From NCBI GenBank assembly GCA_036426205.1, contig CM071571.1, positions 115,444,244 through 115,508,243 on the forward strand: a stretch of 64,000 bases of DNA, given 5' to 3'. This stretch comes from Ascaphus truei (Eukaryota > Chordata > Amphibia > Anura > Ascaphidae). The translations under genes were made by a program, and so were the position numbers. Below the pieces are notes generated by a model that made no database searches, was not told the DNA's origin, and saw only the letters and a program-made list of their open reading frames with translations. Below are positions 6,618 through 56,696 of this stretch, piece after piece; within the stretch, counting starts at the first letter, position 1, and each line of letters starts with the position of its first letter.

Positions 6618-6619
6618 TA

Positions 6620-15385: not shown

Positions 15386-15426
15386 CACAACAGGATCAGG
15401 TGCTTTTTCTTCATGCCTGTAAATCT

Positions 15427-31355: not shown

Positions 31356-31611
31356 GACATACGTTACCGTGCCAAGGTCTGGTAAAGCAAGAGACAGCAC
31401 TCAATTGTGAGAAACTTCACAAAGTGTATTGTGAAAATAGTGGTACATCCAGAAAACAATGGTTCGGTCCTCCAAAATGGTACTCCCATTTTGGAGGACC
31501 GAAACGTTGGGTTTCTGAGTGTACCACTATTTCACCAATACACTTGTGAAGTTTTCTACAATTGAGTGCTGCTCTTGCTTTACCAGAACTTGGAACCGTA
31601 ACGTATGTATA
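31356..31611. repeat. Foldback element with hammerhead-related core
   Basis: Arms of about 120 bp (ACATACGTTACCGTGCCAAGG pairs with the right-hand CTTGGAACCGTAACGTATGT) meet at a loop of a few bases near 31,478. The inner arms are GGTCCTCCAAAATGG and CCATTTTGGAGGACC. The right arm continues with GAAACGTTGGG, the 3' half of a hammerhead-type motif. Confidence 0.85.
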
Positions 31612-32140
31612 TATTATCCATATGGGGCAGCACCTACAGCCTATCAGCACCTAAGGAGTGCTACTGTTCTATTTGACTTTATATATATATATATATATAT
31701 AGATTATATAAGTAATACACTCAACTGTTTAGTGTGATCACTATAACGGGATCCGCTGGGCTCAGGGAGAGCCTCCTCTCCCTGCCTGTATCTCTCTGGG
31801 CTGTGGGGGAGGATTGAAGGGAGTGATCCCTGGACGGGAAAATCAGAAACAGCTGACATCCCGTGAGCTCTCCTCCCCCTCGCAGCTTCTCTGCACAGAT
31901 CAACTGCTGAAGATGCTGGGTAAGGGTAAGTGCTGCTGGGATGGGAGGTGGAGGCGGGGGCCTGTCACTGCGACACTGGGCTTTGGGAGAGTTATCTCAG
32001 CTCTCCCCCTTCTGCAGCGTGGAGACCCTGGTCACGGCGGCCATATTGTTTTTTTAATTAGCACGACCCCAGTTTTAACGTGGTCTGAACGGGTGGTCCC
32101 CGAGGACCACGTTATTATGGGGTTCAGCTGTTTATGTATA

Positions 32141-35330: not shown

Positions 35331-36329
35331 CGTCACTGGTTATTCCAGCGGTACTTTCGCCTGAATAAATGTGCCTCAGGGAAAGAGGGCCCAAGACATG
35401 CTCCGGCTGCAAAGGTAATTGCCACAGGGTACAGCCAGAGTTAGTGAGAGCCCCATCAAGGTAATCAGTGCTTTTAATCTTTAAGTACCATATAAATTGC
35501 CCCAGAGGGGAAATCCCAAATCTCTGAGAGGGATGGTCGTGAGAAAATACATGGCAGTAAGAAGTACCATAAAGGTTCAAAGGTTGCAAAGCAAAAGAGA
35601 GAAGGTCAACGCTGGCCTTGAATTTTCCGGATCGCCACCTGGGCCACATAATATAAAGACGAAGACTATCCGGCCCCAGAGTTCCGTCAGAAGCTAAAGA
35701 AACAGTCCAGTCATTTGCAGGTTGCAGCGGCCTATGAAATAAAGTCAGGAAATGTAATGGACTGGAAGTCAAAAAAAAAAAAATGTGTTTGGGGAATTGA
35801 CCGAGATTTTTTTTGTTATTACACATGTGGACTATGTACGGACACTTAACTATGCAAATAAGCTATTGTAGTAAGGTATATTAGGCCTCTAGAATAAGCA
35901 TTTTGTCAAGGTTACAATGTATATTGGTTCTCTGTGTTGAAAATGTAGCTAAACTACAAATTAAATATACCGGGTTGATGGCCCTTTCAGTGGTAAATTT
36001 ATAATTGGGTTCATATTTAGGTAGAACACCCAGGGATGGTAATAGAAATGTGTCTGGTTTCTGAATATATTTAGCATATCTGGGTTGTAAGAATGTGGGC
36101 TAGACATATATTTTTCAAAATAAGTTCCCTAATAGAGAGCAACAAAAATATGTTTACCCAATATAGTCTCTTATGACGAAACCTATTGTCCATATTGCTG
36201 TGTGGAAAAAGTTCATATTGTGTCAGTGAATACTTATGTTGTACTGAGGAGTTAAGCTCAAGTATTTCAGGTAGGACGCTCACCCCAGTGAGGTCCATGG
36301 CCGCTACTACCCCAGTAGGTGTGAGCTGG

Positions 36330-36341
36330 GGAGGGGAGATA
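36330..36341 (+). promoter_or_regulatory. Polypurine tract
   Basis: A GGGGAGGGGAGA-type purine run stands directly before the 3' LTR TGTGACAT. Confidence 0.65.
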
Positions 36342-37135
36342 TGTGACATAGTCCAAAGATGTAGGCAGCTTTCTGCCCTCATTTAGAGCAGCCAGAAAGT
36401 GCAGGAATAGTTAAAAATGATCCGTTCCACAGCTTCCCATAACTCAGGCAGCTGGATGGAAAATCCAGACCACAGATTACAATGGCTCTAGTTTCCCTCA
36501 CCTGCTCTTCTAATAACATGCACAGGTATTTAGAGCAAAGAGGTTTGCATTTCACTCTCTCTCCTTAGAGCCTGGAGGCTGGGGGTTATCGCTGCTCTCT
36601 GTTTCCAGTTTCGGGGTTGACGGCCCCCCCAAGTATCACAGTACCAGAGGATTTGCCCTGGACAGGGCCCGAGTTCCCACCACGAACAGATAAGACCCAA
36701 ACAAATGTTTACTGCTGTTTCTAAAGACGTGCTGTATCTAAGTGACCCAAATGAGAGGGCATTGTTTTAGCTGGGGGACCAGGTTAGTTGGCCAGCAGCT
36801 GTTAGAGAGACTGATTCTGATGTGTAGGTAGATCCCTGAAAGGGATAGGATTTGTTATATGATTTTGGTTTTATTTCTTGAAATAACAGTGTGGGAAATA
36901 ATATAACACTGAAATGTGTGAACTGCTGAATGAATGAAAGTATCTGAGTACCTCTAACCTACACATGTTAAAGCTGCAGTACCTTACTTGGATGAAAATA
37001 AAGCAGCAGAAGCCTGAGTTAAGCAGCATAATACTTTGCATGATCCTGTTTGTGTGTATAATTAAAACCCTAGAAGACTGTGTCGGGGGAAGAACCAGAC
37101 AGAGTCAGCACTACAAAAGAGGGGGACGTGTCACA
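36342..37135 (+). repeat. 3' LTR of pol-less element
   Basis: 794 bp, TGTGACATAGTCC...GTGTCACA. It is collinear with the 5' LTR, including AAGTATCACAGTACCAGAGG and a GAAATAACAGTG block. Confidence 0.8.
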
Positions 37136-37220
37136 TATATATATAGATATATTATATATTATATAATATATATATATACATACATACATACATACATACA
37201 TACATACATACATACATACT
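37136..37220. repeat. AT and TACA microsatellite
   Basis: (TA)n followed by about ten CATA units directly after the LTR. A degraded counterpart lies at 41,270-41,345. Confidence 0.85.
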
Positions 37221-37408
37221 GCTGCGGCACATCTGAGTCTAACACATCGCCGTTTTTTCCCTGGCTTTTTCCTGGAATGTGACGCACTTCACCTGGATAA
37301 TGCCGCATTCATTTTGCGTTCTCAGCCACGGGTCATGCGCGGTTGACGCGCGGTTGATGCGTTTATTGAGAATGGTTCGGATTTAATAGGTTGCAATTCT
37401 TTGCGTGT

Positions 37409-37422
37409 CCGCCAGGTGGCAG
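37409..37422 (+). promoter_or_regulatory. CTCF-core-like motif in repeat
   Basis: CCGCCAGGTGGCAG matches the vertebrate CTCF core consensus (CCASYAGRKGGCRS) at 13 of 14 positions. It lies in a repeat that recurs at 41,620 (intact core) and, inverted and decayed, at about 55,330-55,360. Binding is not shown. Confidence 0.4.
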
Positions 37423-37834
37423 ATATTCATGAATTGTAATGCGCATGCGCTTCAGTAATGTGTCGACTTGCAGGTGTTTCGTTTAAAAAAGATACCACAG
37501 TGTGCTATTGTAACTTGGCCTTGAGACTGAAGGAAGAGGTTGCAAAAATGTATCAATTTAGGCTTTTCATATTAAAGAAAGACAAAGACCAGTTTCGGTT
37601 ACAGTATTCTCCAGAGACCCGCCGCCCGCCATGAGTGTTCAAGTGCAGCCCGTTTTCCAAAAACCCGACAGAAGTTACGCATATTTGATATGGGCCGCGA
37701 TTAATGCAACAGATGATAAGATGGCAACAGTTGTTCAAATGTATCAGTATTTTATCGAAAGCTATGACTTTTAGAAATTTTCGCCAGCTCCTCATACGTG
37801 GAAGCGTGCATTAAGGAAAAGGTTATGTAGCGAT

Positions 37835-37880
37835 CCCTGACGAAGCCTGCTGTCCTATTGGGCGAAACGCGTAGAGTGGA
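37835..37880 (+). ncRNA. Hammerhead-like motif, degenerate
   Basis: CTGACGA, stem II GCC/GGC with a 13-nt loop, GAAAC, GCGTA, GAGT. Stem I does not pair well in this copy (ATCC against GAGT). A GCGAAACGCGTAG-type word is the recognisable core. The second unit (42,150-42,195) is more damaged. Confidence 0.4.
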
Positions 37881-38894
37881 CCCGCCCCGGAAGTGTAAGG
37901 ATTCGTCCTGCTAGCTGTCAATCATGGGACGCACCGGAAGTGACGCGATGGAGCTCAGTGTGTACACCGGAAGTGACGTATCGCATCGGGGAGAATGCTG
38001 GAGGTGATCCCTATACACTGCAGTGGAGAGGAGAGCACAGAGAGCCCACAAGAAAGATATCACGAAGTGACGGCAGTGCGGTGAGCTGCGGCCGAATCCC
38101 TATAACTCCTGAGTCACTTGTTAAAGCTGAGGTTCAGTCTTTTTTTTTTTTTTTTAATTTATTTTTTTACTTTAATAGTTTCATGTGTGCAATCTCTAAT
38201 TACCTAAAGAACTGTATAGCTGCAGGTCAATTCGTTCTCTATGTATTGATAGGCGAAATTTGGTGACATAATTAGTGAAGGGATCAGTTTTTCTTCTGCT
38301 TCTGTCTCTCAGTGGAAGCTCATGAATATTCATGAGCACTCCTGCACTGACATGTGCTAGAGGGAGGGCAGGGCTGACAAAGGGGTGTGCCAGGGCTTGT
38401 GACAGGAGCGATAGAAAATCTAGCAGGGTTAAAGAAAATACGACAAAGAGGTGGAAATAGAAAACTCACTGAGCTCTCGAACACCACGATAGTATGACAA
38501 GAAAGAGGACTGTGGGTGAAATTCGTTTGAAAAAAACTACACGTCCCAAACCTGTACCAAATGGGACAGACAACCTGCTTGATATCTAGAAAGAACTGTT
38601 AAGGCGATGAAATGACAGATTGAAAACGTGAAATGTGTAAAGAATTAAGATTTGAGCACACACACTATAAGCAGGGGACAAAAGTAAAATGGGGGATGGT
38701 TGACCGGTAAGGAAACATTAGAAGTGCGGTCACTAAGAAGCAAGTGAATGCGCGCAAAATCGGACCCAGAGAGCCGAGGAAGAATGGACGCGGCTGAAAG
38801 CGACAATTGGGGGTACGAAATGTATCGCGCACAAACAAGAATTCATCGAAATGTCGTGAGGAACTTAAAACGTTTGTTGAAATAGCAGAAACCA

Positions 38895-39472
38895 TTGCGA
38901 AATAATCAGAGAGAAGTGTGTCTTGTGAACACTCTTATCACAAGGAAAGAAGGAAGAGACATTGATCGGTCGTACCACCGCCGCAACTATCATCCTATCG
39001 CTGCCTACAGGATGAAAATGTCGTGTCATGTGTGGTCGGCCAGGAAAATAAAAGAGACATCCCTGTGGTGCTGTCAAATCATGTCACCGTGCCCGACCTG
39101 GCTACGAACGAGGTTCTTACTTATGAAAAAAAGGGAACGGACAACTATAAAATCATCCAGGCTCTGACATATATACGACAAAACAGGATTACGCATCTCA
39201 AACCCGAGAAGGCGTTCACGGTTCTCCGCGGTATACCTGTTCGCCTGTCAATAATTTATGGCCCTCAGAAAGAGAGTGCCCCAAGTCTCGCCCTGCCGGG
39301 CTGCAAAGGTCACTTGCCACAGGTACCCGAGTTAGGGAGAGCCCGCATCAAGTACTCAGTGCTTCATGCTTCTAAGTACCATATCATTGCCCCAGAGGGA
39401 AGCCCAATCTCTGAGAGGTTGGTAAATGTCGTGAGGAAAACTACAAACATGGAAGCGTGTAAAGAAGTATAA
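38895..39472 (+). CDS. Unknown ORF in second unit of pol-less element
   Basis: Two overlapping frames (38,895-39,167 and 39,023-39,472) appear to form one protein. The first has RSYHRRNYHPIAAYRMKM. The second, of 149 residues, has DIPVVLSNHVTVPDL, THLKPEKAFTVLRGIPVRLS, GCKGHLPQVPELGRARIKYS and KYHIIAPEGSPISERL. The homologous stretch in unit 1 (about 35,100-35,530) is full of breaks. It lies after the coiled-coil region and before the LTR. I do not recognise the family; it could be the C-terminal part of the element's Gag-like protein or a captured host exon. Confidence 0.4.
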
Positions 39473-40367
39473 ACCATAAAGGTTCAAAGGTTTGCAAGCA
39501 TGAAGAGACGAAGGTCACGTGGCGCTTTGCGCGAATTTTCCCGGATCTCGCCACCGCCCCTGGCCCGATACTAAAGGACCAAGACTATCCCGGCAACCAT
39601 GTCTCAGTAGAAAGCTAAAAGAAGACTGTCCATCAGTTGCAGGTAGTGCAAAGAACTGCCGGGCCATATGGAAATAAGTCAGTGACAATGTACATGGATC
39701 GAGGATGCAACAACAAAAAATGTGTGTTTGGGGAAAGAAAATATACCATCGCTGTGTTTATTGTTTTGTTATGCCCGGATGTGTGACTAATGTCCGTGAC
39801 CGCTTAATAATGAGCAAATAAGGCATCATATATGATCAAGTTCGGTATAAGCGTGATAGGCACTCTAGATAGCATTGTTGTCAAGTGAGCGAGGTATCAT
39901 TGGTGTGTTCTCTGCTCCTCTGAAAAAAGATAGTAAAGCTAAACTACCACACGATCATCACATTGACTACGGGCCCTGCTCCGCACGGTGTCAATTAGAG
40001 AAGAAGGTCCATATGTCGAATGAGAACATCCCATAGGAATACAATCAGAAAGGGTCCCGGGTGTTTCGGACTATCACTCAGGAGCCTATCCGTGGATTGG
40101 TGTTGGAAGTGATCATAAAGCCACTTACAGGTTTATCAAATAGTTGTCCCGAATAAGGAGCAGCAAGTTGTTTACCAAATTAGTCCTACTAGGGCTGCAA
40201 ACCGATGGGCCATATGCGCTATGATGAACAAGTTCATTTACGTGGGTCATTACATACTTACTTTTGTAACTGAGGAAGTTAGCTCAGTATTTCAGGTAGG
40301 ACCTCACCGCGCCAGTGAGGTCCTGTGGGCGCTGCTCACGCACAGTAGTTGTGAGCTGGGTAGGGAA

Positions 40368-41268
40368 TTTGACCTAGTCCAAGATGTGAGGAGGACATCT
40401 TTGCTGGGCTCTCTGCCGGACCATAGATAAGCAAAACCAGATGGCAGGAATACTAGGTACAAAGAGCCGTTCCACAGCGCTCCACAGTGAACTCATGGCG
40501 GCGGGAGGGAAATCCGACACACAATTGACAATTGCTCTAGTGCTCCTCGACCCTGAGCGCGAATAACTGCAACGGAATCTAATTGTAGAGCAGAAGTAGG
40601 TTTGCAATATTCATTTCACACTCTTCCCTCTCCTAGAAGCCTGAGCTGAGGGTAATCGCGCTCTCTGTTTCCAGTTTCCGGGGGTGACGGCCGCCTCCAA
40701 GTCTCACAAAGTACCAGAGGAATAATTGCCGGACACGGACCAAGGGGGCGATTTTCCCACCGACGAACAGTAGACACCAACAAATTTCGTACGATGCTGT
40801 GGGCTAAAGACTGTTGCTGTACAAGTGACCCTAAAAATGAGAGGGGATAATAGTTTGCAGCTGGGGACCATGTTAAGGTTGGACCCGCAGGCTGGTAGAG
40901 AGACTGATTCTGTCATTGTAGTTAGAATCCCCGAAGGGATGGATATGCTCTAGGGATGATTTTGTGGGTAGGTTATTTCTTGAAATAACATGGTGGGGGA
41001 AATACCGGCTAACACTGAAATGTGGTGAACTTGCTGAATGAGTCTCGGGTCCCATATTCTCTCTCCTACACATAATTAAATCTCAGTGAAGGCCTGTCTT
41101 TGATGAAATAAAGCAGGCAGGAAGGGGGGGGGTCGGCGAGTTAGAGCATCATAAATACTTTGCATAGATCCAGTTGGTTGTAAATAAGAAACCCTAAAGA
41201 AAACGATGCATACGGGAAGAACCCACAGAAAACGTCAGTACAAATACAAAAGAGGGGGCGTTGGTCCA
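40368..41268 (+). repeat. Third LTR copy, degraded
   Basis: It is collinear with 36,342-37,135, with insertions making it about 900 bp. The TG start is damaged (GAATTTGACCTAGTCC). Confidence 0.65.
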
Positions 41269-41619
41269 ATATATAGTATATATATAGAATATATACGATA
41301 TATTATATTCTCTACAGTAATACATTCCATACATACAGACATACGTTACATCCATAATGCTAGTCGGCACCAGTCTGATCCTAACACATCCCGCGCGATT
41401 AAATATATAAATTACCCTGGTGTGTGGGTGATTGTTCCGGGAATGTGACGCACTTACCTGGGATAATGCCGCAGTTGCAATGTGTTTGTGCGTTCCTAGC
41501 TGCACGGGTCCATGCGAACGCGAAAAAAAAAAGAAGGGGGTTGACGCGCGGGATTGATGGCTAAATTATTGAGAATGGTTCGGGTCATTTAATAGGTGGC
41601 AGTATTTCTTACTGCGTGT

Positions 41620-41633
41620 CCGCCAGGTGGCGG
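41620..41633 (+). promoter_or_regulatory. CTCF-core-like motif, second unit
   Basis: CCGCCAGGTGGCGG keeps the 13/14 consensus match although the surrounding repeat is heavily altered. Confidence 0.35.
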
Positions 41634-42840
41634 AGAGTTTCAGGATTGTAATCGCATTTATGAGCTTAAAAAAAAAGACGCTCCATGAACAATAGTTCGA
41701 CTTTTGCAGAATGATTCGGTTATCAAAAAGAAATACCACACAAAAAAGATCCAAGATGTTTCCTTTGCTAAACTTGGCCTTGAGCTGAAAGGAAGAGTGC
41801 ACCAAAATGATCACTTTAGGCTTTCTCTATATAAAAAAAGACAAAGACCGTATCGGTTACAGTATTCCTCCGAGACCCGCCGCCAGCCGCAGCCAGGTGT
41901 TTCACAAGTGACCTCCCGTTTTGCAAAAAGGCCCGCAGAAGTACGCATATAAATTGAAAATAGGGGCAGAAGGGGGGGGGCGCGATTAAAAAAAAATGCA
42001 ACATATGAAGATGGCAACATAATGTTCGCAAGAGAGGGGGGGGAAACTGTATCAGTAAATTTTTCGAAAGCTATGAACTATAATTAGAGTTTTCGCACGA
42101 GCTCCTCATACGTGGAAGCGATTCACTTAAGGCAAAGGTATTGTAGTACTCTCCCTAGACAATCGCGCTGTCCTATTTGCGGAAAACGCGTAGGCGTGCC
42201 CCGCACCGGAATCTAATGTAGGAATTCGTCCTGGCGAGCTGTCATCAGATGTGACGCAGAACCAGGAATGACGCAGTGAAGACTCAGTGTTACATATCAC
42301 CGGAAGTGACGGGGTATCGCATGCGGGGAGAATGCTGGAGGTGAGTGACGAAACCTATCACTGCAGTGGAGGAGGGAGAGCACGGCGTAGAGACAACACG
42401 AAAAATATCACAATAGTGACGGTCATTGCGGTCATGAGCGGCAGAGAAACCCGAATCTCCTATCACATCCTGAGAAAAAATCCCATTTTTAAAGCTGAGG
42501 TTCATAACTTGTTTTTTTTTTTTTTTTACTAATTTTTTTTTTACTTTATGTTTCAATGTTTGCAATCCTCTAAGTACCTAAAGACTGTATAGCTTCAGTC
42601 ATTCGTTCCTTCTATGAATTGATAAATGGAAAAACGATAAATTTGGTCGTGATTCATATAAAAGTAGTGATAAATTGACTCTTTTTCTTCATTGCTGCTG
42701 GGATCTGTCTGTCTTCTCTCAGTGGAGAAATAGGCGCAGAATATATCTAGAGCACATCCTGCACTGACATGGCTAGAGGGAGGGCAGGGCTAAGAACAAG
42801 GGTGTGCCAGGGCTTTGTGGACAGGGCAATGAAGGGCGGT

Positions 42841-45800
42841 AAAAGACCCGGGAGAAAAAGTTCAAACGGCTGTTAAGGAATAGAAAATACAAGAAATTGG
42901 TTCTTAGTCAGAATGTGGTATATTTTTTTAAAACTGAAACGGCTAAAATATTTTTTCACTTACTACAGCAATCGTTTATTAAAAAAACACATGCCCACGA
43001 TAGTGACTGAACTTCCGCTTTAGTGATCAATGTTCACTCAATAATTTTAATTATGATATATACGGATACGAAAAGATTATATATATATTTAATTAGCTAT
43101 TGTGTAAGCAGTTTTAGGCATTAGCATAAAGTTTTCACCTTTTTCACCTTAGTGTTGGCACCTAAACAGAAGATTTCTTTCATTTTCCATGTTCTCAGCC
43201 ATCCTGATTTCTTCTGACCTGTGGGAGGTATCCTGTCTCAACATTTTATAACTCAAGCAGATTCCATAGATCCTGTATTTGCCCATACCCGACTACTATT
43301 CTTGTGAGTAGGGCTGCGGGCGGCGGGCGTGGTTCACCAGTTTATTAAATCCAATACATGTTGCCGGCCAAACTGACTGTATTGTCTGCACTTAGTTTGT
43401 ATTTTTTTCTGTTGTTTTTGGTTACCTAACCAAATGCTCCCCCATTTTGTGAAGAATATATTATCGGGTCCAATCTGGGACCCAGTGAAGACGTCCTTCC
43501 AGAGGGTTTTTGGAGCGCGGTGGTTACCAACTTTGAATACGTCCACATACCTGTTTATGTTGCACAAGATTTTAGTCACGGTCTTAGAGTAACGAAAATA
43601 ACAAAAGAATAATATAATCAATGTTTAATATATCTTTTCACTTATTATTAAGTGATCAAACTAGTGTTTATTATTAAAAAGAAGCAGCACTTATTTCTTG
43701 TGCTCTCTTGACCTGCTTTGTCACCCGAAAAATAAGCAAGTTGTCCAAAACCAGCCTCATCACGTGCGGACTACAGAAAGGTTTGCCCTAAGTGTCCCTG
43801 CTGCCAACCTAAATCGATGTGTGGATGAATCAAGAACACTGATAGCGTGGTGTGGCTGTGTTGTGGGTGGTTGCGGTAGGGGGCAGCAACACGGCACGAC
43901 TCCAGCTGAATGGGGAAACTCTCATGGTGAGAAAAAAATATTGTGTGCCCCGCGTCTATTTTCTTGTCTTTCTGTTTTTTTTTTTATTTTGACAATACAA
44001 AAAAGTAATCAATCGGTGCAGAGATACACACAAGTCAGCGTCTCCTGTAGGCATATACATTGGCTAGACGGCTCTACTACTGTGCTAAAAAAAGCAGATA
44101 CTAGAACACTGTGGTGGCAGCCTGCGAGGCGGCATGGGCGCATGGAGAGACCAAACAAGATTAGGAGGGGGGGTGTCGTAGTGAAGACTAGCCTCACTGA
44201 TAGTGGGGGGTCGCTCATGTGAGCGTCCCGGTGGGAGCCCTTGTATAGTCTCCCCACAGATCTTACACCGGTAAGAGACAACAGCAATAAGTCGACGGTT
44301 GTAAGCTGCTGGGCGGCGCCACGGAACCAACGGCGTGCGGCATCGGCGGGGGAACGCGGGGGCCATCCGGAATCCCGCGTGGGTAAGGCTTGGGTAGGGT
44401 TGTATAAGCGGCCGCGTCGAACCGTTAGCGCCCAGTGCGTGCAGTGGATACAGCAGAAGGTGCCTGACTGCCTGATTGGCAGCGGTGGAGAAAAGAAAAG
44501 GGAAAATAAAAAAGAGAAAAGAAAAATGTCGCTCTCACGAGGTGCATAGCCCCCCGCCCTGGGATCCTATGGCAGGGGATCGGATAGGAAAGAAATCGCC
44601 ACGCCCTGCTGTCCTCTGTCAAAACAAACAGCCCCAAAACGCGTACCTTGACAGGAGACTGAATCAGTCCGTTCCTGGGGAGGGGGGCGGGCGCTCTTGT
44701 TCAACACAAAGGGCAGGGTGTTTGGGTGCACCAGGTGGCTGAGAGCCCTCGCTTCAACGCTTTAGAGCCGGTGTCGGGGGGTTTCCAACGAGGGGCACCT
44801 AACTGTGCGCGTGCAGCGGCGACCCCCCCGAGTTGGCCGCATGGTTACTCTGTAGGGCTTGCCTCGCGAGTGTGTAGGGGTTCAGACCAGTACGTAACAA
44901 GCCACCAAACACCGGCCACTACTAATGAAGACACCACGGGTTGGCGATAGCGGGGGGGCGGGTCCAGATCAAATAGACCTGCATGTCGCAAGAGGCCTCG
45001 AGCGGCTCGTTGCGGAAGCAAGTGGGGTTACGCTTGGGCAAAAATCTCAGAGCTGCTTTCCACCGGGCCGCAGTAACCGATCAACGCCCAAAACGGACAA
45101 AAAGTGATCAATCCTCAGTCGGCACTATAGTTGGGCAACAGAGTGAGGCGAAGAGTCGCTCCATGACCCACCAAGAAGGCTATGTGATACAACTAGGGAG
45201 CCCTCCCGCTTCAGGCAAGTAAACCACTGTCCCAGTGGAGAAGCCTTGCAGACGGCCACGTGCGAAACCCTCCTCCTCGCTTCCAGCACGGAGACGCACA
45301 GGACAGGCCCGTGAGGTACCGCCGGGATAACACAAGCCGCCGCTTCAGCACAAAGAAGAACAGGACTGCTGAGGTGACGCAGCGAACCTCCTCCGCTTCA
45401 GTCTCAAAAGGGGGGGAAAAATAGATACAACGAGTAAGAGGCGTGAAGGACCAGGGGAACCTCGGTCTCTTCAAGAGACACAAACAAAAGGACAGAATCG
45501 GAGGAACGCAAAGGGGACACCTATAGCCGCTTCAGACACAGAAACAAGGTGAGGCTTTGGTGGTGCCAAAACAGGTCGTGACACTCACGGAAAGGCCACT
45601 CCAATGCTGGCTCCGCTGGGACCCCTCGGCACGGGGATCTTGTGGGAACGCATACTTTCAAGAAACAGCACGCGGTAAGCTGACAACAGCAAAACCGTGA
45701 GCGGGATTCGTACCGAGGCGGCATGTCCATGGCCAAAAAGAAGTGCACGGGAGACGCATCCCCGAGACTGTAGTGGGGAAGAATGGGCTGGTGACTTTTA

Positions 45801-46300
45801 TAAGACGACCATTACAGTAAAAACGTCTTCTTTTTGTTTTTTCCTCAAAGAAAGTGGCTAATGTAGGTATTTCGGCGGGTTGATAATATCACTCCCCCTC
45901 TTGGTGGACCAAGGCGCCCCTGCACATTGCTGGACTCGATTTAAAAAGCTGCTAACTGCCCGGAGTCTATAACTACGTTTAGTGCCGTTGTTATTGACTT
46001 TCGAGATAGAATACTCGTACCTACTGGAACGGTATGATGCCTGGACTGGTTTATCCAACGGTCGTTGCGTGGGAGTATATCAAGATCACTTTTTTCATAA
46101 CTCATAGACTTTGTCCTAACACCGAAAAAATAAAAACTAGGTGGGCATTTATTGTACATGTATTCCTATTGCTGTACATATGTCTGGGCAGATATAGACA
46201 AAGTATCTGTGTCTTCTAAGCACGAAGAGTAAAGCCCAGTACGCTACACAGAGTGCAGGTACTCGTATGGTGGTCCTTCCTACTTTTTTTTTTTTAACTA
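42841..46300. other. Unrecognised stretch
   Basis: An AT-rich part (to about 43,700) contains a 95-residue minus-strand frame (43,334-43,621) of no recognisable family. A GC-rich part follows (44,100-45,800) with many short open frames on both strands. CCGCTTCAG occurs at 45,206, 45,340, 45,393 and 45,527, spaced 134, 53 and 134, hinting at a weak 187-bp tandem repeat. I can name no gene here. Confidence 0.4.
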
Positions 46301-46987
46301 CTCCTCTTGATACCGTAGCATGTCGGCCGGGGCCTACAATATACATTACAAGTTGTGCCTGGACCGTTAGTGTTACATCTCTAGCACCCCGTATCTACTT
46401 TGTTACAGTAGCAAATGCCCAATCGAACAATGTTAAAATACGGCTCCCCAAATCACCCTGTTCTTTTATTGGTTGGAGTAAGTACAAAAACATTTATTTA
46501 CAAATACTGTACAATGTAGAAACATTTTAAGTGCACAGCAATTCAAAACATCAACAGGTGTATGGTTTACTGCTACAGTTGTGAAAACATTTATGTATAG
46601 AAAGTAAAAACATTTACAGTCAGTCAGTATGGTTTACAGTCAAATGTTTTAAAAACAAATTCTTTATTCATAAAAAATACAAAACGCAACATCTCCTTTA
46701 TTAAAGTTAAAACATATACAGTGGGATGGTGTGCAAAACAGTCTGCACCAGTACAGTCCTCGAGGGCAGCAGACAGGCCCGGTTTTCAGGACAACCTTGA
46801 AAACTGCGCCTGTTTGCGGCCCTCAGGGACTGGAATTGTGCAGGTCCTGTGTGTGTGTGTACAGCAAGTTAAAGCAGTAAGTTAAATACAGTACAGCAGG
46901 TCAAAACATCTCCTTTATTTAAGTTCAGCAGGTCAAAACATGTACAGCACAGTTCAGCACAACAGTATGGTCTTACAGTTCCCGTGA

Positions 46988-48574
46988 TTAAGCCATAAAG
47001 TCCACCACATTGTCCATCCATTGCCGATTCCTTGCATGGCGCAAAACGCCATTAATGCAGTCTCGAACGTCTTTCATTACAGGATCTGTAATTGGATATA
47101 AGCGCTGCATTTCATCCAGAATGTTCTTTCTTAAATTGGCAGGAAGCGCCTTTTTTACGCGATTTCCGTCGTAGTTCACTCTGAAGGCCCAGTCGCAGTA
47201 CAACGAGTAGGGAACATGGTGCTTAAAAAGTAACAAGGCATACTTGTGGGGTGCACCTGCACTCATCACCCTATACTTCTCCCTGAGCATCGGTGGCAGA
47301 TCGCACAGGGTGATGTCGGGCACCGTATCGATGCGAGCGAATGTAGGTCTTCTGCGAGCGGGTGTGCTTGAGGCGACGGGTGATGGTAGGTTGTCTGGGA
47401 GGAAGCTTTCCTCCGGTCTTGGTCGCCGTGTTGTCTCCTGGCGTGGTCTTGACGGGGTTGTCATGTCCTCCTCAACGGCATACATGTACACTACATCTTC
47501 TGGTTGAGGGGGTGCACTTGATGATGGAAGGGGGTCGATGCTCCCATTCATCACATCCATGTCACCCCCCTTCTCCGGCGTCGGGGAAACAGGGGCATTA
47601 ACACCGAGCAAATGATGTATACCCGCTATGTCAGCCTCTATCTTTTCCATCTGTCGATCCATCCGTTGATCCATATCTAGCATCCGTTGATCCATATGTA
47701 TCATCCGTTGATCCATATGTAGCATCCGTTGCTCCACATTTAACATGGTCTCCAGAAGCAAAACTATCTTTGCTAGCACAATAGAGTTCCCGGGGAGATC
47801 CACACTTATCCCATTCAGCATCCGGTCTAAGGAGCTGCTTCTTGTGCATGGCGTGTGGACATCTGGGTGGATAGGTGCAACGGAGGATGAGATGGGGGTT
47901 CCATGGAGAGAAGCGGCAGCGACGTCGCAGAAGGGTGGAGGAGGTGACCTGTGGATATCCGGTAGAGGAGAAGCGGCAGCGTCGTCGAAGAGGGATGGAG
48001 AAAGTGACCCTTGGATTTCCGGGCGAGAAGCAGAGTCGTCTAAGAGCAAAGGAGAAAGTGACCCGTGGATTTCAGAAGCGGCAGCGTCGTCGGATAGAAC
48101 CGGAGAAGATGGCCTGTGGGTTTTCGGGAGGGCGGCGGCAGCATCCAGGACGACGGGTGGAGAAGATGGGCTGAAGATTTCCGGGACAGCGGCGGCAGAG
48201 TCGTCGAAGCGTATGTGAGGAAGTGGTCTGAGGGTTCGATGGGTTGGCTGCCAACAGTTTTGCGTCGAGAGTGCATCACCGTATATCTTCTTGACATAAT
48301 AAGGCTGACGTCTATGAAAACCCTTAGCCTTTGGGGTCAGCAGAAGGTTTTCTTTATTGGCCTTAGCCTGTCGCTTTTGCCTTGGTGTGGAAACGGCAAC
48401 CACCTTTCGCTTTTTCTGCATGACAGGCATGGCAGAGGCGAGAGGGTTCCTGCGTCCGTAGAATTGGGGTTGCTCCATGGAAGCAGGTGGCACAATGCAG
48501 TATCTGGACAAGGGCAAGTTCAGATAAAGATCATCGAGTGGTGGGCTATGCAAAGTGTGTAACCTTTTATGCAT
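46988..48574 (-). CDS. BEN-domain protein, transposon-associated
   Basis: This is an intact 528-residue single-exon frame. Likely starts are 48,574 or the Met at residue 33 (48,478). A classical basic nuclear-localisation motif (QKKRKVV, then RQKRQAK) is near residues 53-70. Residues about 125-235 hold roughly six degenerate 18-20 residue repeats built on SLSPLLLDDAAASPEI. Around residues 285-310 there is a seven-residue repeat (MDQRMLH, MDQRMIH, MDQRMLD). The last ~100 residues (ITLCDLPPMLREKY, the LLLFKHHVPYSLY segment, KDVRDCINGVLRHAR) look like a BEN domain, a DNA- or protein-binding fold of chromatin factors and some viral proteins. It is divergent from the transposase. Inference: a nuclear DNA-binding accessory protein; a decayed host gene is the alternative. 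Confidence 0.6.
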   Translation of the reverse strand: MHKRLHTLHSPPLDDLYLNLPLSRYCIVPPASMEQPQFYGRRNPLASAMPVMQKKRKVVAVSTPRQKRQAKANKENLLLTPKAKGFHRRQPYYVKKIYGDALSTQNCWQPTHRTLRPLPHIRFDDSAAAVPEIFSPSSPPVVLDAAAALPKTHRPSSPVLSDDAAASEIHGSLSPLLLDDSASRPEIQGSLSPSLFDDAAASPLPDIHRSPPPPFCDVAAASLHGTPISSSVAPIHPDVHTPCTRSSSLDRMLNGISVDLPGNSIVLAKIVLLLETMLNVEQRMLHMDQRMIHMDQRMLDMDQRMDRQMEKIEADIAGIHHLLGVNAPVSPTPEKGGDMDVMNGSIDPLPSSSAPPQPEDVVYMYAVEEDMTTPSRPRQETTRRPRPEESFLPDNLPSPVASSTPARRRPTFARIDTVPDITLCDLPPMLREKYRVMSAGAPHKYALLLFKHHVPYSLYCDWAFRVNYDGNRVKKALPANLRKNILDEMQRLYPITDPVMKDVRDCINGVLRHARNRQWMDNVVDFMA

Positions 48575-48729
48575 GGCAGCGAGGTACAGGTGTTGAAAGT
48601 GGGCGTACTCTAATGTGAGTCATTACCGTATAAATACACCATCCATTTTGTGGCTTCACTGCACATTGAATACATACTGACTAAACATCGAATATACATT
48701 CTTGTGTTTGTATTTCTTTCTACTCACAG
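48575..48729. promoter_or_regulatory. Divergent promoter region
   Basis: About 155 bp separates the BEN start from the transposase exon. It contains a GGGCGT word, a TATA-like GTATAAATAC at about 48,628 on the plus strand, and at its right end a polypyrimidine tract plus CACAG (48,713-48,729) that looks like a splice acceptor. So the transposase may have an untranslated first exon in this region. Confidence 0.45.
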
Positions 48730-50117
48730 CAATGGTTGTTAAAAAGATTTCCAAGGATCTCAGCATGCGAATTAAGGAGATGTACACGAGCGGACACCGA
48801 ATTGCTGCTATCCAACGCTGGTTAGCTACTTCTGGCCTCGTTGTGCCAGCAACCACCGTGAGCTATCATGCACATGGAAAAAACAGAGAACGCAAAAGGG
48901 CACCAAGGGTAACTGAAGCGTAAGTATATTTATAACACTTTAAAAAAAAATTAGATCCAAAAATGTACTGTACATCTACAGTACTGTATCTAATATTTTG
49001 TATATTCATATTTATATTACAACAGTATATATATTTTGTATATTTATATTTATATTACAACAGTATATATATTTTGTATATTTATATTTATATTACAACA
49101 GTATATATATTTTGTATATTTATATTTATATTACAACAGGATATATATTTTGTATATTCATATTTATATTACAACAGTATACTGTATATATTTTGAATAT
49201 TTATATTTATATTACAACAGTATATATATTTTGTATATTTATATTTATATTACAACAGTATATATATTTTGTATATTTATATTACAACAGTATATATATT
49301 TTGTATATTTATATTACAACAGTTTTATATTGCTGCATATTAATCCTGTCTCTAATATTTTTACTTACCGGAATGTTTTTCTTTACATTGTAGGGAGACA
49401 ACTCTTCTGGTGGACAAAATAAGTGAGGAGAATGATGAGATCAGTGCATTAAGGGTCAAATACACTCTGCAGGCAAATCACAATCTCACTGTATCCGAGA
49501 CCAGCATAAAGAAGATGAGACGCAGCATTGGATGGAAATATGGACGTGTGAGGTTAGTACTGGACAGTACAGGAGGTAAAAGTGTTGTTTAGGAAACTGT
49601 ACTGTACCGCTAAAATTATTTATTCCTTGTCATTACAGAGCGTACCCCATGATACGGGACGTAAACAAAATAAAAAGAGTAGTCCAGGCCCAGGCATGGA
49701 TCGACAGTGGAGAAACTTTCCAGGATTGCATCTTCACTGACGAGTCTACTGTGTCGCTGGAGACATTTGCAACCTTTGCATTCCACAAAAAAGGCCGCAT
49801 ATCTTTGAAGCCGCGGCCAAAACACCCTGTTTCTACTGTGTACTGTTTTTACTGTGTACTGTATCTCTTAAACTAATTGTCCTTTTTTTCCAATGACAGA
49901 TCGCCAGACTTTAATCCGATCGAAATGGTCTGGCATCAGCTGAAGGACCATATCCGGAAAGTGGCGAAACCCTCCAAAAAGGACGAGTTGTTGAAAGGCA
50001 TAATGAGTTTTGGAACGATGTACTCACCGTGGAACGCTGCAATAAATATATAGACCATATTGCCACTGTGTTGCCCATTGTGATTGCGTGTAATGGGCAA
50101 GCATCAGGAAAGTAGTA
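48730..50117 (+). pseudogene. Tc1/mariner-type transposase, spliced, internally deleted
   Basis: Exons by frame and splice signals are 48,730-48,919, 49,394-49,552, 49,639-about 49,828 and 49,900-50,117. Start ATG 48,732. The N-terminal exon looks like a helix-turn-helix (SKDLSMRIKEMY, IAAIQRWLATSG). Exon 3 has WIDSGETFQDCIFTDEST with the first catalytic Asp, and LKPRPKHP. The last exon has SPDFNPIEMVWHQLKDHI with the third acidic residue. The block carrying the second catalytic Asp, expected between KPRPKHP and SPDFNP, is absent; only about 70 bp lie there. A one-base deletion near 50,006 shifts the last exon. The product would be inactive. Confidence 0.75.
48960..49330. repeat. 38-bp AT-rich minisatellite in transposase intron
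   Basis: About eight to nine units of 38 bp or shorter variants, each with ACAGTATATATATTTTG and TTTATATTACA, fill most of the first visible intron. The long Tyr/Ile-rich frames here come from the repeat. Confidence 0.9.
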
Positions 50118-50299
50118 CTGTGCTGTAGTATTGTAAGTACAGTATGATACAGGTAAGTATGGCACAGATTTTTTCTTTCCCAATAGTCAGAGTATACAGT
50201 AGTTACAGTTTTTTGAAGTGAAACTTCTTTAGTGGCACCTATTCTGATGGGGTAAAACGGGAGAGTTGTAGGCGAAATGTGAAACGGAAGTGACGTCAC

Positions 50300-50860
50300 G
50301 GCTCCCCTCCCCCCGCGTCTACTGTGACATGCGGCGGCAGCGATAGCCACCGGCACCGCTCCTAACAGCCGCCGCTCCCCCCACAAACCCGCTGTGACAT
50401 GCAGCCCACACACCCGTTGTGACATGCGGCAGCGGCGGCGATAGCCGCCGGCGCCGCTCTTAATGGCCGCCGTTACCCCCCACACGTCCGCTGCCATGGG
50501 TATAGCAAGATGGCTGCCGCAGAGCTTCCGGTGCTGCGGGTGTAGTAAGATGGCAGAAGCCCCGCAAGTACTTCGGCTGTGAGAGGAGGAGCCGCTGCTC
50601 AGCCTCTCTCCTCCCTCTTCTCTACCTCCGCTTCCCTGACTAACGGGCGCCGCTCTCCCCACACGGCTGGCCGCCGCGCCGCTCATAGCGGCCACCGTTC
50701 CCCGCTGCCATGTTGTGATGGCGCCGCTGACAGATGCCACACATGCGCAGAAGCGGCTGGCAGCGGCACCATTCCCCCCACACGTCCTTTGCCATGCCGC
50801 GCATGCGCTGTTCCCCACGCCCGCTGACATGCCGTGCATGCGGTAGTCATAGCGACGCCA
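50300..50860. repeat. CpG-rich imperfect repeats
   Basis: Recurring words such as GTGACATGCGGC, GATAGCCGCCGGC, CCCCACACGTCC and GCCATGCCGCGCATGCG give a CpG-island-like block. Open frames on both strands are Ala/Arg-rich and low complexity. No gene is recognised. Confidence 0.65.
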
Positions 50861-50943
50861 CGGACGCCACATGCCTGCCTCCTCCTTGGAGCTCATCTCC
50901 GGGCCGGTCACCGACCCATTGCCTGGCAGGATGTCTGTCTGAC

Positions 50944-51050
50944 ATGGAGACCCGCACCCTGCTGGATATCTGGGGGGAGGCAGATGTGCAGGGATTCTGC
51001 CCGACCCGAGTCCCGGGATCCTGCATCACTCCCTGGACTCCCGTGCAGGG
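50944..51050 (+). pseudogene. Myb/SANT-like DNA-binding domain fragment
   Basis: METRTLLDIWGEADVQ matches the start of the Myb/SANT-like domains (Myb_DNA-bind_4 type) common in transposon-derived vertebrate proteins. The helix-turn-helix remainder is lost after ADVQ. A later frame (about 51,160-51,230) reads EDYREGSSCYTEHPIKVEE, acidic as in the linkers of such proteins. Probably a relic of the nested element's second gene. Confidence 0.45.
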
Positions 51051-51269
51051 GAGGTGAGCAGGTGGAGGAGACCTAGGAGCTGAGAGGGGCCGAGGAGGAA
51101 GACGAGGAGCCGCCCCACCCTGGGGAAGTGGGGGGGCCCGAGTCATCCCAGGACAATTTTACAGGAGGACTACAGGGAGGGCTCTTCCTGCTACACCGAG
51201 CACCCGATCAAGGTGGAGGAGGGGCCCAGCGTTGCCATCCGTCATTCATATATACTCGTACTCACACCT

Positions 51270-51895
51270 CCTATGTCACACACACACGCACTCAGACACA
51301 CACTGTCACGCGCACACTCACAGTCATGCGCACACTCACAGTCATGCGCACACTCACAGTCACGTGCGCACTCACAGTCATGCGTGCACTCACAGTCATG
51401 CGCGCACTCACAGTCACGTGCGCACTCACAGTCACGTGTGCACTCAGTCACGTGCGCACTCACAGTCACGCGCACTCAGTCACGCGCAAACACTCACAGT
51501 CACGTGCACACACCAGTCACGTGCACACTCTCACCAGTCATGCGCACACACTCACCAGTCACGTGCACACTCAGTCACACGCACACTCAGTCACACGCAC
51601 ACGCACAGTCACACGCACACTCACACGCACAGACACAAGCACGCTCAGTCACACGCACGCTCAGTCACACGCACGCTCAGTCACACGCACGCTCAGTCAC
51701 ACGCACGCTCAGTCACACGCACACTCAGTCACACGCTCAGTCACAGTCACACGCATGCTCACATGCACACGCACGCTCACATGCACATGCACACTCTCAG
51801 TCACACTCTCAGTCACACGCACACTCTCAGTCACACGCACACTCTCAGTCACACGCACACTCTCAGTCACACGCACACTCTCAGTCACATGCACA
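51270..51895. repeat. CACTCACAGTCA minisatellite
   Basis: Imperfect units of 12-20 bp (CACACGCACACTCAGT, CACTCACAGTCATGCG and similar) run for about 620 bp. All three plus frames and two minus frames are open because the unit lacks stop codons. It is not coding. Confidence 0.9.
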
Positions 51896-52069
51896 CTCGA
51901 GGAATTCATACTTAGTGCAAATAGCTAATACAGTTGATGTGTGCCGAGCACGCGCATTCTAAGTCAAATTTATTTGCGTTTTGTCAATGAAATTGTATAT
52001 TGATTTTTAATGAAAACATCACAGACACAAATACAATTTCTGTGACAAAAGTCAAAGAAGTTTCACTTA

Positions 52070-52970
52070 CTATGCGCGTGCACAGCACACACAGCTTTTT
52101 TTCTTTACAGAGAGAGCAGCACCAGCCATCAGGTTACAGTACATAGTATTTAACAGTAGTCAGAGTATACAGTAGTTCCAGTATACAGTAGACTAGTTTG
52201 ACAGTACTACAGTAACTGCCTACTAACTGCTCAATTTTTTTTTCCAGAGAAAGCAGCACCAGCCATGTACAGTAGTACTACACATCACAAAATGCCATAA
52301 TACAGTACGCACATAACTGCACTAATTTTTTGTTTTCTTGTCGTTTCAGGAAAAAGGGTGGCCTGGGGGGAGGTGGGGTGTTGTTCCAGTCTAATCTGCT
52401 TGTACAGTCAAATGTACAGTATATAAACAGCAGTAATGATGTACACAAAACCTCTCCTCTCTCAATGAACTAATGTACTGTACACAGAATGAGGAACAAG
52501 ATAAAGACGGAAAAAATAATATTACTATAAATATATATATATTATACATTACAGTATATATTATTAAATAATATTCTTATAAATGTGCATTATTCATGTT
52601 TCCCCATGTTTTACAAATGTTTTCTAAATGTTTATCCAATTTCAATCTGCCAGAAGAACTTAATAAAGACAGCATTATGTATTATTCATGATTATTTTTA
52701 TATTTGTATTTTTTTTAGTTCCTGATAAAATAAAATGAATATTTATTCACATTCCTTCTAATCATAATCATTGACAACAACCACAACCCCCCCCCCCCAC
52801 CCCTTCAGTACACCAATGAATAAGAATGAATGACAAAACAACATGAATTAGTTAATGGTTTTTTTAACTCTCAATTCTCACAATACTGTGCAAATCAGAT
52901 TTACATTTCAAAATCGAGAAGGGATTTTCCAAAGTGTTACCGTAAACAAAGCCTCAAAGGGTTGGGGGGA
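52070..52970 (+). other. AT-rich 3' region of mariner-like element
   Basis: Homologous to 905-1,640 of copy A, including AATGATGTACACAAAACCTC and a C-run. A local duplication repeats AGAGARAGCAGCACCAGCCAT at about 52,110 and 52,248. No gene. Confidence 0.65.
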
Positions 52971-54250
52971 AGGGGGTGGGTGAGTCATGTGCAGTAATCA
53001 GATAGCTCCCATCTCAAAGAGGATTACACAATGGCAATATTCAGAAAATTAACGACTCTGTGGAGAGAGGGGGTTGGGTGACTCATGCGCAGTAAGCATC
53101 AAGCTCCCATCTTTAAAAGGATTAGAGTACACGCAGGCGCAGTGAGGCAATTGACGCTCGGCTAGGGACGGATTAAAAACACAATGACTAACTAACTTCA
53201 GAAAATTAACGACTCTGTGGAGGTATCTGTCGATAAGAGTTTGTGTGTGCGTGGGGGAGGGATGAAGGATTAGTCGTGCAGCAGTTCAAAGAAATAACAT
53301 AATGTACTGTAGAGTACAGTAATTTCAAAAGGCAGTTCATCATAATACTGTAATTTGATCCCTACACCCCCCAAATACAGTACATAAAAAGCACACATAT
53401 CAACCACGTGCAGGCAAACGCACAGATTTAATATCGTAATATCAAGATTGTTTTTGCAGGCTTGTGGATAAAATAACAGTTAAAAGTTACAGGCGTATGA
53501 GCAGGAATAAACTAGCTCCCAACCAAAAGAGGATTACACACAGTCGCATAGAGAGGTGATGCTCTGTGCAAATCAAATTCGCAGGCGCAGTGATGCTTTG
53601 TAGCTCGGCTATGGACAGATTCAGAACACAATGGCAAGATTCTGTAAATTAACGACTCTGTGGAGAGGGGGGGGTTGGGTGACTCATGCGTAGTAAGCAG
53701 CTCCCATCTCAAATAGAATTACATACAGGCGCAGTGAGGCTTTTTAGCTCGGCTATGGACGGATTCAGAACACAATTGCAAGATTCAGTAAATTAACGAC
53801 TCTGTGGAGAGGGGGGTTGGGTGACTCATGCGCAGTAAGCAACTCCCATCTCAAAAAGGATTACACGCAGGCGCACTGAGGCTTTGTAGCTCGGCTATGG
53901 ATGGATTTAAAACACAATGGCAAGATTCAGAAAATTAACGACTCCGTGGAATTTCAAATCCTTGAGCTAGCATTCGTGGGGGAGGGGGCTACAGGGTACA
54001 GCTGCATGAAGTTCAAAGCTAAAGACATACTTTCATTTCAAAAGGCAGTTCATCATAATAATACACCCCCAAATACAGTACATAAAAAGCACACAAATCA
54101 ACCATGTGCAGTCAAACGCACAGGGTCTCAGTCAAAAGCTACAGCACAGATTGAATATCGTAATACAGTAGGATGGTTTTTGCAGGCTTGCATGGTTTTT
54201 GCAGGCTTGCATGGTTTTTGCAGGCTTGTGGAGAAAATAAAAATAAAAAG
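52970..54250 (+). repeat. Expanded subterminal repeat array, copy B
   Basis: The module with TGACTCATGCGCAGTAAGCA, AGCTCCCATCTCAAA, CGCAGGCGCAGTGAGGC, CTCGGCTATGGACGGATT and ATTAACGACTCTGTGGAG recurs about five times (starting near 52,980, 53,080, 53,500, 53,680 and 53,820). Copy A has two. A CATGGTTTTTGCAGGCTTG unit is triplicated at 54,173-54,230. Confidence 0.75.
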
Positions 54251-54699
54251 ATTACAATAAAAAAAAATGAAAACATGTCAAGCATGAATGTGATTGAAAC
54301 CAGACTCACGTTCAAAGGAATGGTGTGGAAGAGATGTACTGCATTGCACAGAAGATAAGAAGTTGAAATACCCTGCAGTGCAGTTAATTATCCTGAGCGA
54401 GGGGAGAGCGCTGTATATGCAGAAATGTGACACTGTTACAGTACTGTACACACCTATGCGTTTCAACAATTTTCAAATGAGACATACTGTACAGCAGCAC
54501 AGCACATGCATGTATACTTTAAATATGCAAATTTACAATTACTGCACGCGCACACACAGACTGTGTAGTGACGTAGGTTGAACCGCAAAGGTATTAGACT
54601 TCCAAGACAACAGCTCGCAAACGCACCCCCTGAGTTTTTACACGGCATTGCAGTATTGCAGACAGCGAGAATAAAATGCTAATATCACGAGCGAAAATA

Positions 54700-54800
54700 A
54701 CGCAGTTCACTCCAGGTGAAAACGACAAAAAAACACACCTAACCGGGATAATCTGAAAGCCGCAGATCTAGCCGACTTAGACTCAGACCGGCCGCCACTG
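54700..54800. repeat. Right terminal region of mariner-like element
   Basis: It is collinear with 2,960-3,065. On the minus strand it begins CAGTGGCGGCCGG and keeps AGATCTGCGGC some 40 bp in. It is followed by TA and an (AT)n tract. Confidence 0.65.
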
Positions 54801-54802
54801 TA

Positions 54803-55141: not shown

Positions 55142-55526
55142 CGACACACTTTATTCGAGCTCGGCTAGTCCCACGAATTCGGGTATACCCGGGTGTATTG
55201 AGGTTTGTGACTGTTTTCTGCCCGAGTGCATTGGGTTATTTTCCAGGCAGGGATTGAAGCATTTTATTCCTGCTGGCTGCAATACTGCACAGTATATATA
55301 TATATACTGCATTACAATTCATGAATTTATGCCATCTGGTAGACACGCAAAGCATTGCAGCCTATTAAATCCTAATCATTATCATTTAACAGATCAGCCG
55401 CCCGTCAGCCAGGCATGAACCCAGGCTGGGAAGGCAAACGCAACGGGGCTTGTCAGAGGTGAGGAGCGGCGCATTCCAGGTATCTGCCAGGTACATACTG
55501 GGTATTTGCTCGAATAAAGTGTGTCG
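55142..55526. mobile_element. MITE with 19-bp terminal inverted repeats
   Basis: CGACACACTTTATTCGAGC at the left is exactly mirrored by GCTCGAATAAAGTGTGTCG at the right (385 bp). It is non-coding. Part of the interior (55,300-55,380) is an inverted relative of 37,385-37,450. No obvious target duplication; superfamily unassigned. Confidence 0.75.
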
Positions 55527-56026
55527 GTGCAGTACAAGATCTTAATGCTCCAGACTCTAAGAGCAAGCACCATCCAGAGGACTGGGATCCTCTGAAACCG
55601 CTGTATTGAAAGATCTGCAGTGACTGACACAATAAAGAATCCTTTGTTTCTTTTTACACCTGCCTGGATTTGAGTCAGTGGGCCTGCGTGTAAGAGATGT
55701 GCAAACTATATACAGACAAAGAATCCCTAATGAATGCACTAATAAAGGGAAATATGGTATAGTAATTGTTAGTTTAAAAACCTTTTAATTAGACATAATA
55801 TAAGAATATGTTTTGTAAAGGGACTGAGTAACTAGATCCATGACCCATCCCATCAACCTTCTAGTAGGTCATATAAATTAAAACAAAATGTTGTGATACC
55901 CTAACTCAAGCGCTACACCTATAAATGTGTGACATACACGAACAAACCAACTTGTGATTAACAGAGGTAAAAGCTGCCAAAGTTTTCCCACAAGCAAATT
56001 CCATCAATTTGCATACAGTAGACCAA
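55527..56026. other. Unassigned stretch
   Basis: No gene or repeat is recognised. Confidence 0.45.
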
Positions 56027-56696
56027 GAAAATAACGGAGGATACCTGGCGCTTAAAGAGTCACTGTGTCCTTTTGAAAACATCCAGTCTTTAAGAGTGTC
56101 CAAGTCCAAACTTGAAGTGGATTGCTGTAGTTTTTCTTCACTGCTGCAGCTCTTTCAATACACTACTGATGTTGGATGTTAACCCCTTACTAACAACTTC
56201 CCCAGTGTGGACTGCATACACTTACAGGAGTGTTTTCTTTCAGATACGTGGAGACAATCTGTGCTTTATTCCCTTTCCGTTCTTATACAACCACCATCAA
56301 CCTGGGTGCTTCCTTTGCTCTATGGGATTTCGTGATTCGGGGATTCTGGGAATCACGAAATCCCAGAGACAAGGAAGCCCCCAGGAGTTTGTGGTGTAAA
56401 GAACGGAAAGGGAATAAAGCACAGATTGTCTCCACTGTATCCTGAAAAAAACTCCTGTAAGTGTATTCAGTCCACACTGGGGAAGTTGTTAGTACGGGGT
56501 TAACATCCAACATCATATACTGTGCGCAATGGTTACCCTTGTATCAATTTCAGGTGTATTGAAGAGCTGCAGCAGTGAAGAAAAACTACAGCAATCCACT
56601 TCAAGTTTGGACTTTGAGACACTCTTTAAAGACTGGACTGTTTCATCAAAGGACACAGTGACTCTTTAAGCGCCAGGTATCCTCCGTTTATTTTCT
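56027..56696. repeat. Large foldback element
   Basis: Arms of about 310 bp (AGAAAATAACGGAGGATACC pairs with GGTATCCTCCGTTTATTTTCT) meet at a centre near 56,340, where GGGATTTCGTGATT faces AATCACGAAATCCC. Arms differ by a few indels and substitutions. It is non-coding; the apparent ORFs mirror each other. Confidence 0.9.

Follow-up and report, generated by a model that had tools for sequence, protein, structure and literature searches.

Evidence for a three-gene Tc1/mariner-superfamily transposon carrying a forkhead gene in the frog Ascaphus truei

A 64,000-nt stretch of the Ascaphus truei genome (assembly GCA_036426205.1, contig CM071571.1, forward-strand positions 115,444,244 to 115,508,243), hereafter the window, very probably contains a decayed copy of a three-gene DNA transposon of the Tc1/mariner superfamily that is repeated in this genome. 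From left to right, the element with high confidence comprises a terminal repeat, a forkhead gene on the plus strand, an open reading frame (ORF) of 528 residues on the minus strand, a 157-bp region and a transposase gene on the plus strand. Beyond the 3′ end of the transposase, a long right arm with tandem repeats very probably leads to the right terminal repeat, with TA flanks on both sides. Two copies seen end to end measure 9,256 and 10,091 bp. The window copy extends from 37219 to 54800 and is broken up by insertions and an error-rich stretch. Genome-wide searches covered the 2.82 Gb of the assembly in 19,235 contigs. Loci were sampled from 20 genome matches to the ORF, with about 10 kb fetched for each, and from eight loci (L034–L041) picked by transposase similarity alone, with 1.5 kb on each side. 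The left flanks were extended for five ORF loci (L029–L033).

The initial annotation, made from the letters of the window, had described an intact 528-residue minus-strand ORF about 155 bp from the first exon of a transposase, with a TATA-like word in between, and had placed both genes in one element. The layout holds: the ORF at 46988–48574 is uninterrupted over 528 codons, the gap from ATG to ATG is 157 bp and the TATA-like word is TATAAATA at 48629–48636. The check suggested there, for further divergent pairs between recurring termini, gave a positive result at many loci. The ORF itself is present at at least 82 loci (85 rows; the best 82 of 20,362 candidates scored), which removes its reading as a single-copy host gene. 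Transposase exon 1 is present at 19 of the 20 ORF loci, and at 18 it lies head to head with the ORF on the opposite strand, 154–165 bp from start to start (158 in the window). An insertion separates the two genes by 2.6 kb in L026, and L025 has no transposase in its fetched sequence. Conversely, at six of the eight loci picked by their transposase (L034–L039) the ORF lies head to head with it. The first 128 residues of the ORF are 55–86% identical there, which dates the pairing to before the present subfamily. A forkhead piece takes the place of the ORF in L040, and neither ORF nor forkhead gene was found within 1.5 kb on each side in L041. Membership of both genes in one element is thus strongly supported by the many loci, the divergent arrangement and the recurring termini. 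The 157-bp region aligns in all 20 ORF loci at 91–97% identity (partially in L025 and L026), and TATAAATA is retained in 19. In the window, as in most copies, a pyrimidine-rich run ending in CAG directly precedes the ATG of the transposase, and a 5′ noncoding transposase exon is possible. The features of the window are as follows.

37217–37242, plus strand: TA (37217–37218) and left terminal inverted repeat, CTGCTGCGGCACATCTGAGTCTAA; start base shared with L029, L030, L031 and L032; 18/24 identical to the window right end.
37631–37837, plus strand: forkhead gene remnant, residues 1–69, with one internal stop; 91% identity to the L029 forkhead protein (tblastn).
38932–46180, plus strand: error-rich stretch, probably an assembly artefact (false duplication); repeats 35079–38406 and extends the element left arm.
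46988–48574, minus strand: 528-residue accessory ORF, from the ORF list; at least 82 genome loci; no Pfam match.
48575–48731, no strand assigned: 157-bp putative divergent promoter region with TATAAATA at 48629–48636, the word being present in 19/20 loci.
48732–48919, plus strand: transposase exon 1, helix-turn-helix-type N terminus; GT-AG borders and homology.
49394–49552, plus strand: transposase exon 2; GT-AG borders and homology.
49639–49829, plus strand: transposase exon 3 with the first catalytic D, truncated by a deletion that also took exon 4.
49900–50115, plus strand: transposase exon 5 with the catalytic E in DFNPIE, frame-shifted in the window copy.
50215–52096, no strand assigned: inserted segment of about 1.88 kb that no other fetched copy aligning across this position has; alignments jump from about 50214 to 52097.
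53026–54190, plus strand: right arm with tandem repeats, from self-comparison and alignments to other copies.
54777–54802, minus strand: right terminal inverted repeat (to 54800) and TA (54801–54802).
574–3067, plus strand: copy A, a second, truncated copy running from exon 5 to the right end, from self-comparison and alignments.

The transposase is spliced, as the initial annotation had proposed. Exons 1–3 (starting at 48732, 49394 and 49639) have GT-AG borders and join into a single open frame. The gene is also decayed in the window: the exon with the second catalytic D is missing at 49830/49842 and exon 5 is frame-shifted. That exon (exon 4) is present in other copies, giving a five-exon transposase of the DDE type. 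Joined without changes, exons 2–5 of L010 match DDE_3 (PF13358) at E 7.3e-15 and have the catalytic spacing D-82-D-32-E. The element thus has the D, D, E/D triad of the DDE_3-type transposases of IS630-Tc1; it departs from the single intronless gene that is usual for Tc1/mariner, though no strict criterion, in its five exons and two further genes. Exon 5 is detected in 14 of the 20 ORF loci. A homologue search with the transposase returned six proteins, namely five Ascaphus models and one ENA protein. P0006, the single-frame protein of a 2,391-bp ENA contig, matches 39% of the query at 39% identity and has catalytic spacings of 83 and 34; the second spacing of Tc1 is 34. Copy A does not cover the gene pair, as had been noted, since its alignment runs only from 574, equivalent to 49859, onward. 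In one Ascaphus gene model, P0007 (FKM82_011115), transposase exon 1 is joined with a C-type lectin domain, either by mis-annotation or as a captured exon.

The third gene is a 193-residue plus-strand frame just inside the left end, between that end and the ORF. Its protein contains a forkhead domain (PF00250, E 1.8e-15, 57.2 bits against a cut-off of 27), which is its only Pfam match, and it matches solved forkhead domains, with FOXL2 first (4.6e-9) and other FOX proteins following. The gene is found in the left 2.2 kb of 18 of the 20 ORF loci (not in L020 or L024). At the five loci where it was fetched whole, two copies have no stop and three have one. At least 150 forkhead places were scored in the genome, of 17,481 candidates. 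A diverged frame in L017 (8867–9421, reverse-complement), 55% identical, keeps the start of the domain well and has one later stop; it appears to represent a related, older subfamily. Element homology in the left arm of the window copy stops at 37839, where an insertion interrupts the forkhead gene.

A single pair of inverted ends encloses all three genes in the two copies seen end to end (L029+L009 and L030+L014). The left end is TA followed by CTGCTGCGGC, with an identical start base in four of the five extended left flanks; the fifth, L033, is without about the first 230 bp of the element. The right end is GGCCGCCACTG followed by TA, and alignment reaches it in eight loci (L009, L013, L014, L019, L021, L025, L027 and L028). 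Left and right ends agree at 19/24 positions in L029+L009 and at 18/24 in both L030+L014 and the window, with 7 matches in the outer 12 positions and 11–12 in the inner 12. Within the window, 18 matches are reached by 2 of 127,952 24-mers, both being the ends themselves. The matching termini expected by the initial annotation are found in part: the ends recur and adjoin TA, but the left word CTGCTGCGGC differs from the right word CAGTGGCGGCC, the two agreeing at 18–19 of 24 positions. TA adjoins all five left and all eight right ends examined, and both ends of one copy in three cases (L029+L009, L030+L014 and the window), as judged from occupied sites. At these occupied sites the element thus shows the Tc1/mariner hallmarks of a TA target duplication and terminal inverted repeats.

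The N-terminal part of the 528-residue protein is basic; the protein further has acidic repeats, MDQRM repeats of coiled-coil-like character and a helical C-terminal domain. No stop lies inside the match in 32 of the 82 loci scored. The whole ORF matched no Pfam family at E ≤ 10. A protein homologue search with it returned one protein, an Ascaphus gene model, among the 7990 best word-sharing candidates scored, and scans of viral contigs with the ORF, P0003 and P0006 gave no matches. The Ascaphus model P0001 (LOC142465264) fuses transposase-exon-2-like repeats to the first 173 ORF residues at 68% identity and is probably a chimeric annotation of element pieces.

The initial annotation had seen an apparent BEN domain at the C terminus of the ORF, a claim that curated profiles do not bear out. 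The suggested profile check, run with Pfam, gave no match for the 528-residue frame; the C-terminal pieces and each of 19 ORF copies were likewise without a match at E ≤ 10, though a BEN-like control sequence was detected at 2.5e-19. Across the whole genome, PF10523 gave 13 matches, 7 of them above the cut-off and none at the listed ORF places (19 candidates passed a first look), so the profile misses the ORF family. Four of these matches fall within one 745-codon frame, which we infer to be a BEND3-like gene. The domain could still be a true but very diverged BEN domain, making the ORF a BEN-type DNA-binding protein paired with the transposase; we regard this as somewhat short of an even prospect. 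A BEN pattern is visible by eye (NYDGNRVKKAL...NILDEMQRLYP...CINGVLRHARNR), low-confidence structure models place helices at fitting positions, and a home-made five-sequence BEN profile gives the window domain 5.7 bits, above 2000 of 2000 shuffles. That profile, however, included two consensus-like sequences typed from recall, and the majority sequence of the ORF copies reaches only 2.8 bits on it, equalled by 20 of 2000 shuffles. When the profile is built solely from real BEN sequences, the domain does not stand out from shuffles (346/2000). The structure models have a mean pLDDT (predicted local distance difference test score) of 47.5 and 49.4; structure searches gave no clear match, and the Foldseek and VIA matches listed for the modelled domain include no BEN chain. 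Host BEN-domain proteins (BANP, BEND3) show a weak likeness of pattern to the C-terminal domain, which gives no significant profile match; the domain is BEN-like by eye but unproven.

We then compared the stops observed in the ORF, the forkhead gene and transposase exons 1–3 with those expected from randomly placed substitutions in 500 simulations. The ORF shows 9 stops against 43.9 ± 6.4 expected across 20 copies (mean 5% from the window frame), which were picked by similarity to the ORF, a selection that biases against stops. In the six copies picked by their transposase, the N-terminal part of the ORF has 6 stops against 14.4 ± 3.3 (1 of 500 simulations as low) and the middle part 2 against 5.8 ± 2.2 (31 of 500). 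Transposase exons 2 and 3 have no stops against 4.0 and 3.6 expected, and exon 1 is not depleted of stops (4 against 4.9). The pooled ratio of nonsynonymous to synonymous substitution rates (dN/dS) is 0.27–0.77 for the transposase exons. Between subfamilies, dN/dS is 0.13–0.23 for exon 3, 0.26–1.44 for exons 1 and 2, 0.22–1.06 for parts of the ORF and 1.80 for the forkhead piece of L040 (54 codons). From these comparisons the transposase core is clearly constrained and the ORF moderately so; neither dN/dS nor stop counts demonstrate constraint on the forkhead gene.

The two accessory proteins look like nuclear DNA-binding proteins, because one has a forkhead domain and the other is a basic protein whose centre is coiled-coil-like. 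Given the DDE domain and the TA sites, the transposase would bind the element ends and move the element by cut-and-paste into TA; the shared TATA region would co-express transposase and ORF. The ORF and forkhead proteins could act as helpers, most likely by controlling the expression or promoters of the element itself or by assisting the transposase at the ends. We tentatively propose, while giving it well under an even chance, that a vertebrate Tc1/mariner lineage captured a forkhead gene and a second gene of DNA-binding type for its own life cycle. The forkhead protein would open or mark ends and promoters, the 528-residue protein would regulate the shared promoter or bridge the ends, and the copies would spread forkhead genes, and possibly binding sites, through the frog genome.

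Several results weigh against such a three-gene element with working helpers. The ORF has a pooled dN/dS of 0.70 (0.94 and 0.86 at its two ends, 0.59 in the middle) and the forkhead gene one of 0.85; the 6 forkhead stops against 10.9 ± 3.1 expected are reached in 41 of 500 simulations. The fetched 10 kb take in the right end at only 8 of the 20 ORF loci, and the helper role is one that we only infer. The listed genome places of the genes also overlap little, a weak test given that the lists are capped: of the 82 ORF places listed, 8 have one of the 148 listed forkhead places within 15 kb (about 0.13 expected by chance), and 1 of the 129 listed transposase places is near a listed forkhead place. 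All eight nearby pairs of ORF and forkhead places are on opposite strands and 2.3–3.9 kb apart, as the model expects. This low overlap, and the heavy interruption of the window copy, could be explained if the ORF and transposase came from different nested elements, or if the ORF were a host gene beside an old transposase. We consider either very improbable, as the same order recurs at the 20 fetched loci and at the loci picked by their transposase, with one inverted-end pair outside all three genes in both copies seen end to end. Alternatively, the forkhead gene and ORF may be passenger cargo, captured and amplified with the element without a role in its movement. The contrast between their pooled dN/dS and the 0.13–0.23 of transposase exon 3 between subfamilies fits this account. 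Yet diverged subfamilies keep the ORF next to the transposase (N-terminal part 55–86% identical) with stops below expectation, a relative at 55% identity still has the forkhead core and 19 of 20 loci conserve the shared TATA region; we judge pure cargo to be unlikely.

Parts of the window are probably affected by its assembly. The stretch at 38932–46180 resembles 35079–38406 and then the left arm at about 70–77% identity, with many short extra bases. Between 36126–38406 and 40147–42825 there are 401 substitutions and 125 runs of extra bases, 451 bases in all, and homopolymer runs of at least 8 occur at 1.35 per kb in the error-rich stretch against 0.34 per kb in 36000–38900. Because of this pattern of substitutions and many short extra bases, the stretch is probably an uncorrected long read placed beside corrected sequence, that is, a false duplication. 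The ORF and transposase exons 1–3 lie outside it and are 88–95% identical to most other copies. Starting inside the right arm of copy A, a tandem repeat of about 4.5 kb (2698–7196 and 7334–11761, 95.5% identity) may be an assembly artefact too, given its many single-base gaps. Just beyond the right end of the element, inverted pieces at 55309–55534 (minus strand) and 55213–55289 are about 74% identical to the element left end and part of the right arm; they may come from an older relative or a deletion derivative. Elsewhere, long self-complementary stretches of 79–85% (15–295, 15426–15721, 31341–31623 and 56026–56696) are probably elements resembling miniature inverted-repeat transposable elements, or foldback elements.

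A typical animal Tc1/mariner element carries one short intronless transposase gene. The frog element resembles it in the TA target, the inverted ends and a DDE_3 transposase with TDE, DND and NPIE motifs, but differs in its size of about 9–10 kb, its three genes, its five-exon transposase and its D-82-D-32-E spacing. A forkhead-bearing multi-gene element is unusual because this class normally carries one gene. Harbinger transposons have a Myb-like helper protein and 3-bp target duplications; they share with the frog element a transposase and a separately encoded DNA-binding helper, and differ in superfamily, helper fold and length of the target duplication. Our literature search, with Repbase and most subscription journals outside its scope, found no Tc1/mariner element with a forkhead gene, and found nothing on the forkhead domain together with a BEN domain and transposon, or with mariner and transposase.

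The nearest known arrangement that we found is the TBE family of Oxytricha, described in the accessible portion of its source as Tc1/mariner transposons with three ORFs, one of them reversed (PMC4724952). A three-gene Tc1/mariner element thus has a precedent. As far as that portion goes, the likeness extends to a Tc1/mariner-type DDE transposase, inverted repeats, a tandem-repeat region and high copy number. The TBE host is a ciliate, and the accessory ORFs are others, a 22-kD protein of unknown function and a 57-kD zinc-finger/kinase protein; that portion does not mention a forkhead gene. Set against these by description, the frog forkhead protein matches PF00250 only and the ORF no Pfam family. 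The frog ends are without the telomeric CA4C4 repeats contained in TBE ends, as that same portion describes them. Fanzor proteins also occur in eukaryotic transposons, mariner being mentioned among them in the part of the source consulted (PMC3627910). There, too, an extra gene stands beside the transposase, but Fanzor is TnpB-like rather than forkhead.

Fragments of this element are already catalogued as genes in Ascaphus, LOC142465264 and LOC142490728 among them. A vertebrate three-gene lineage with a spliced transposase and a forkhead gene would show that Tc1/mariner elements can gather host-type regulators, as the TBEs gathered other genes. Whether a transposon employs a transcription-factor domain in its own movement becomes a testable question, and the element offers a route by which a forkhead gene can be multiplied in a genome.

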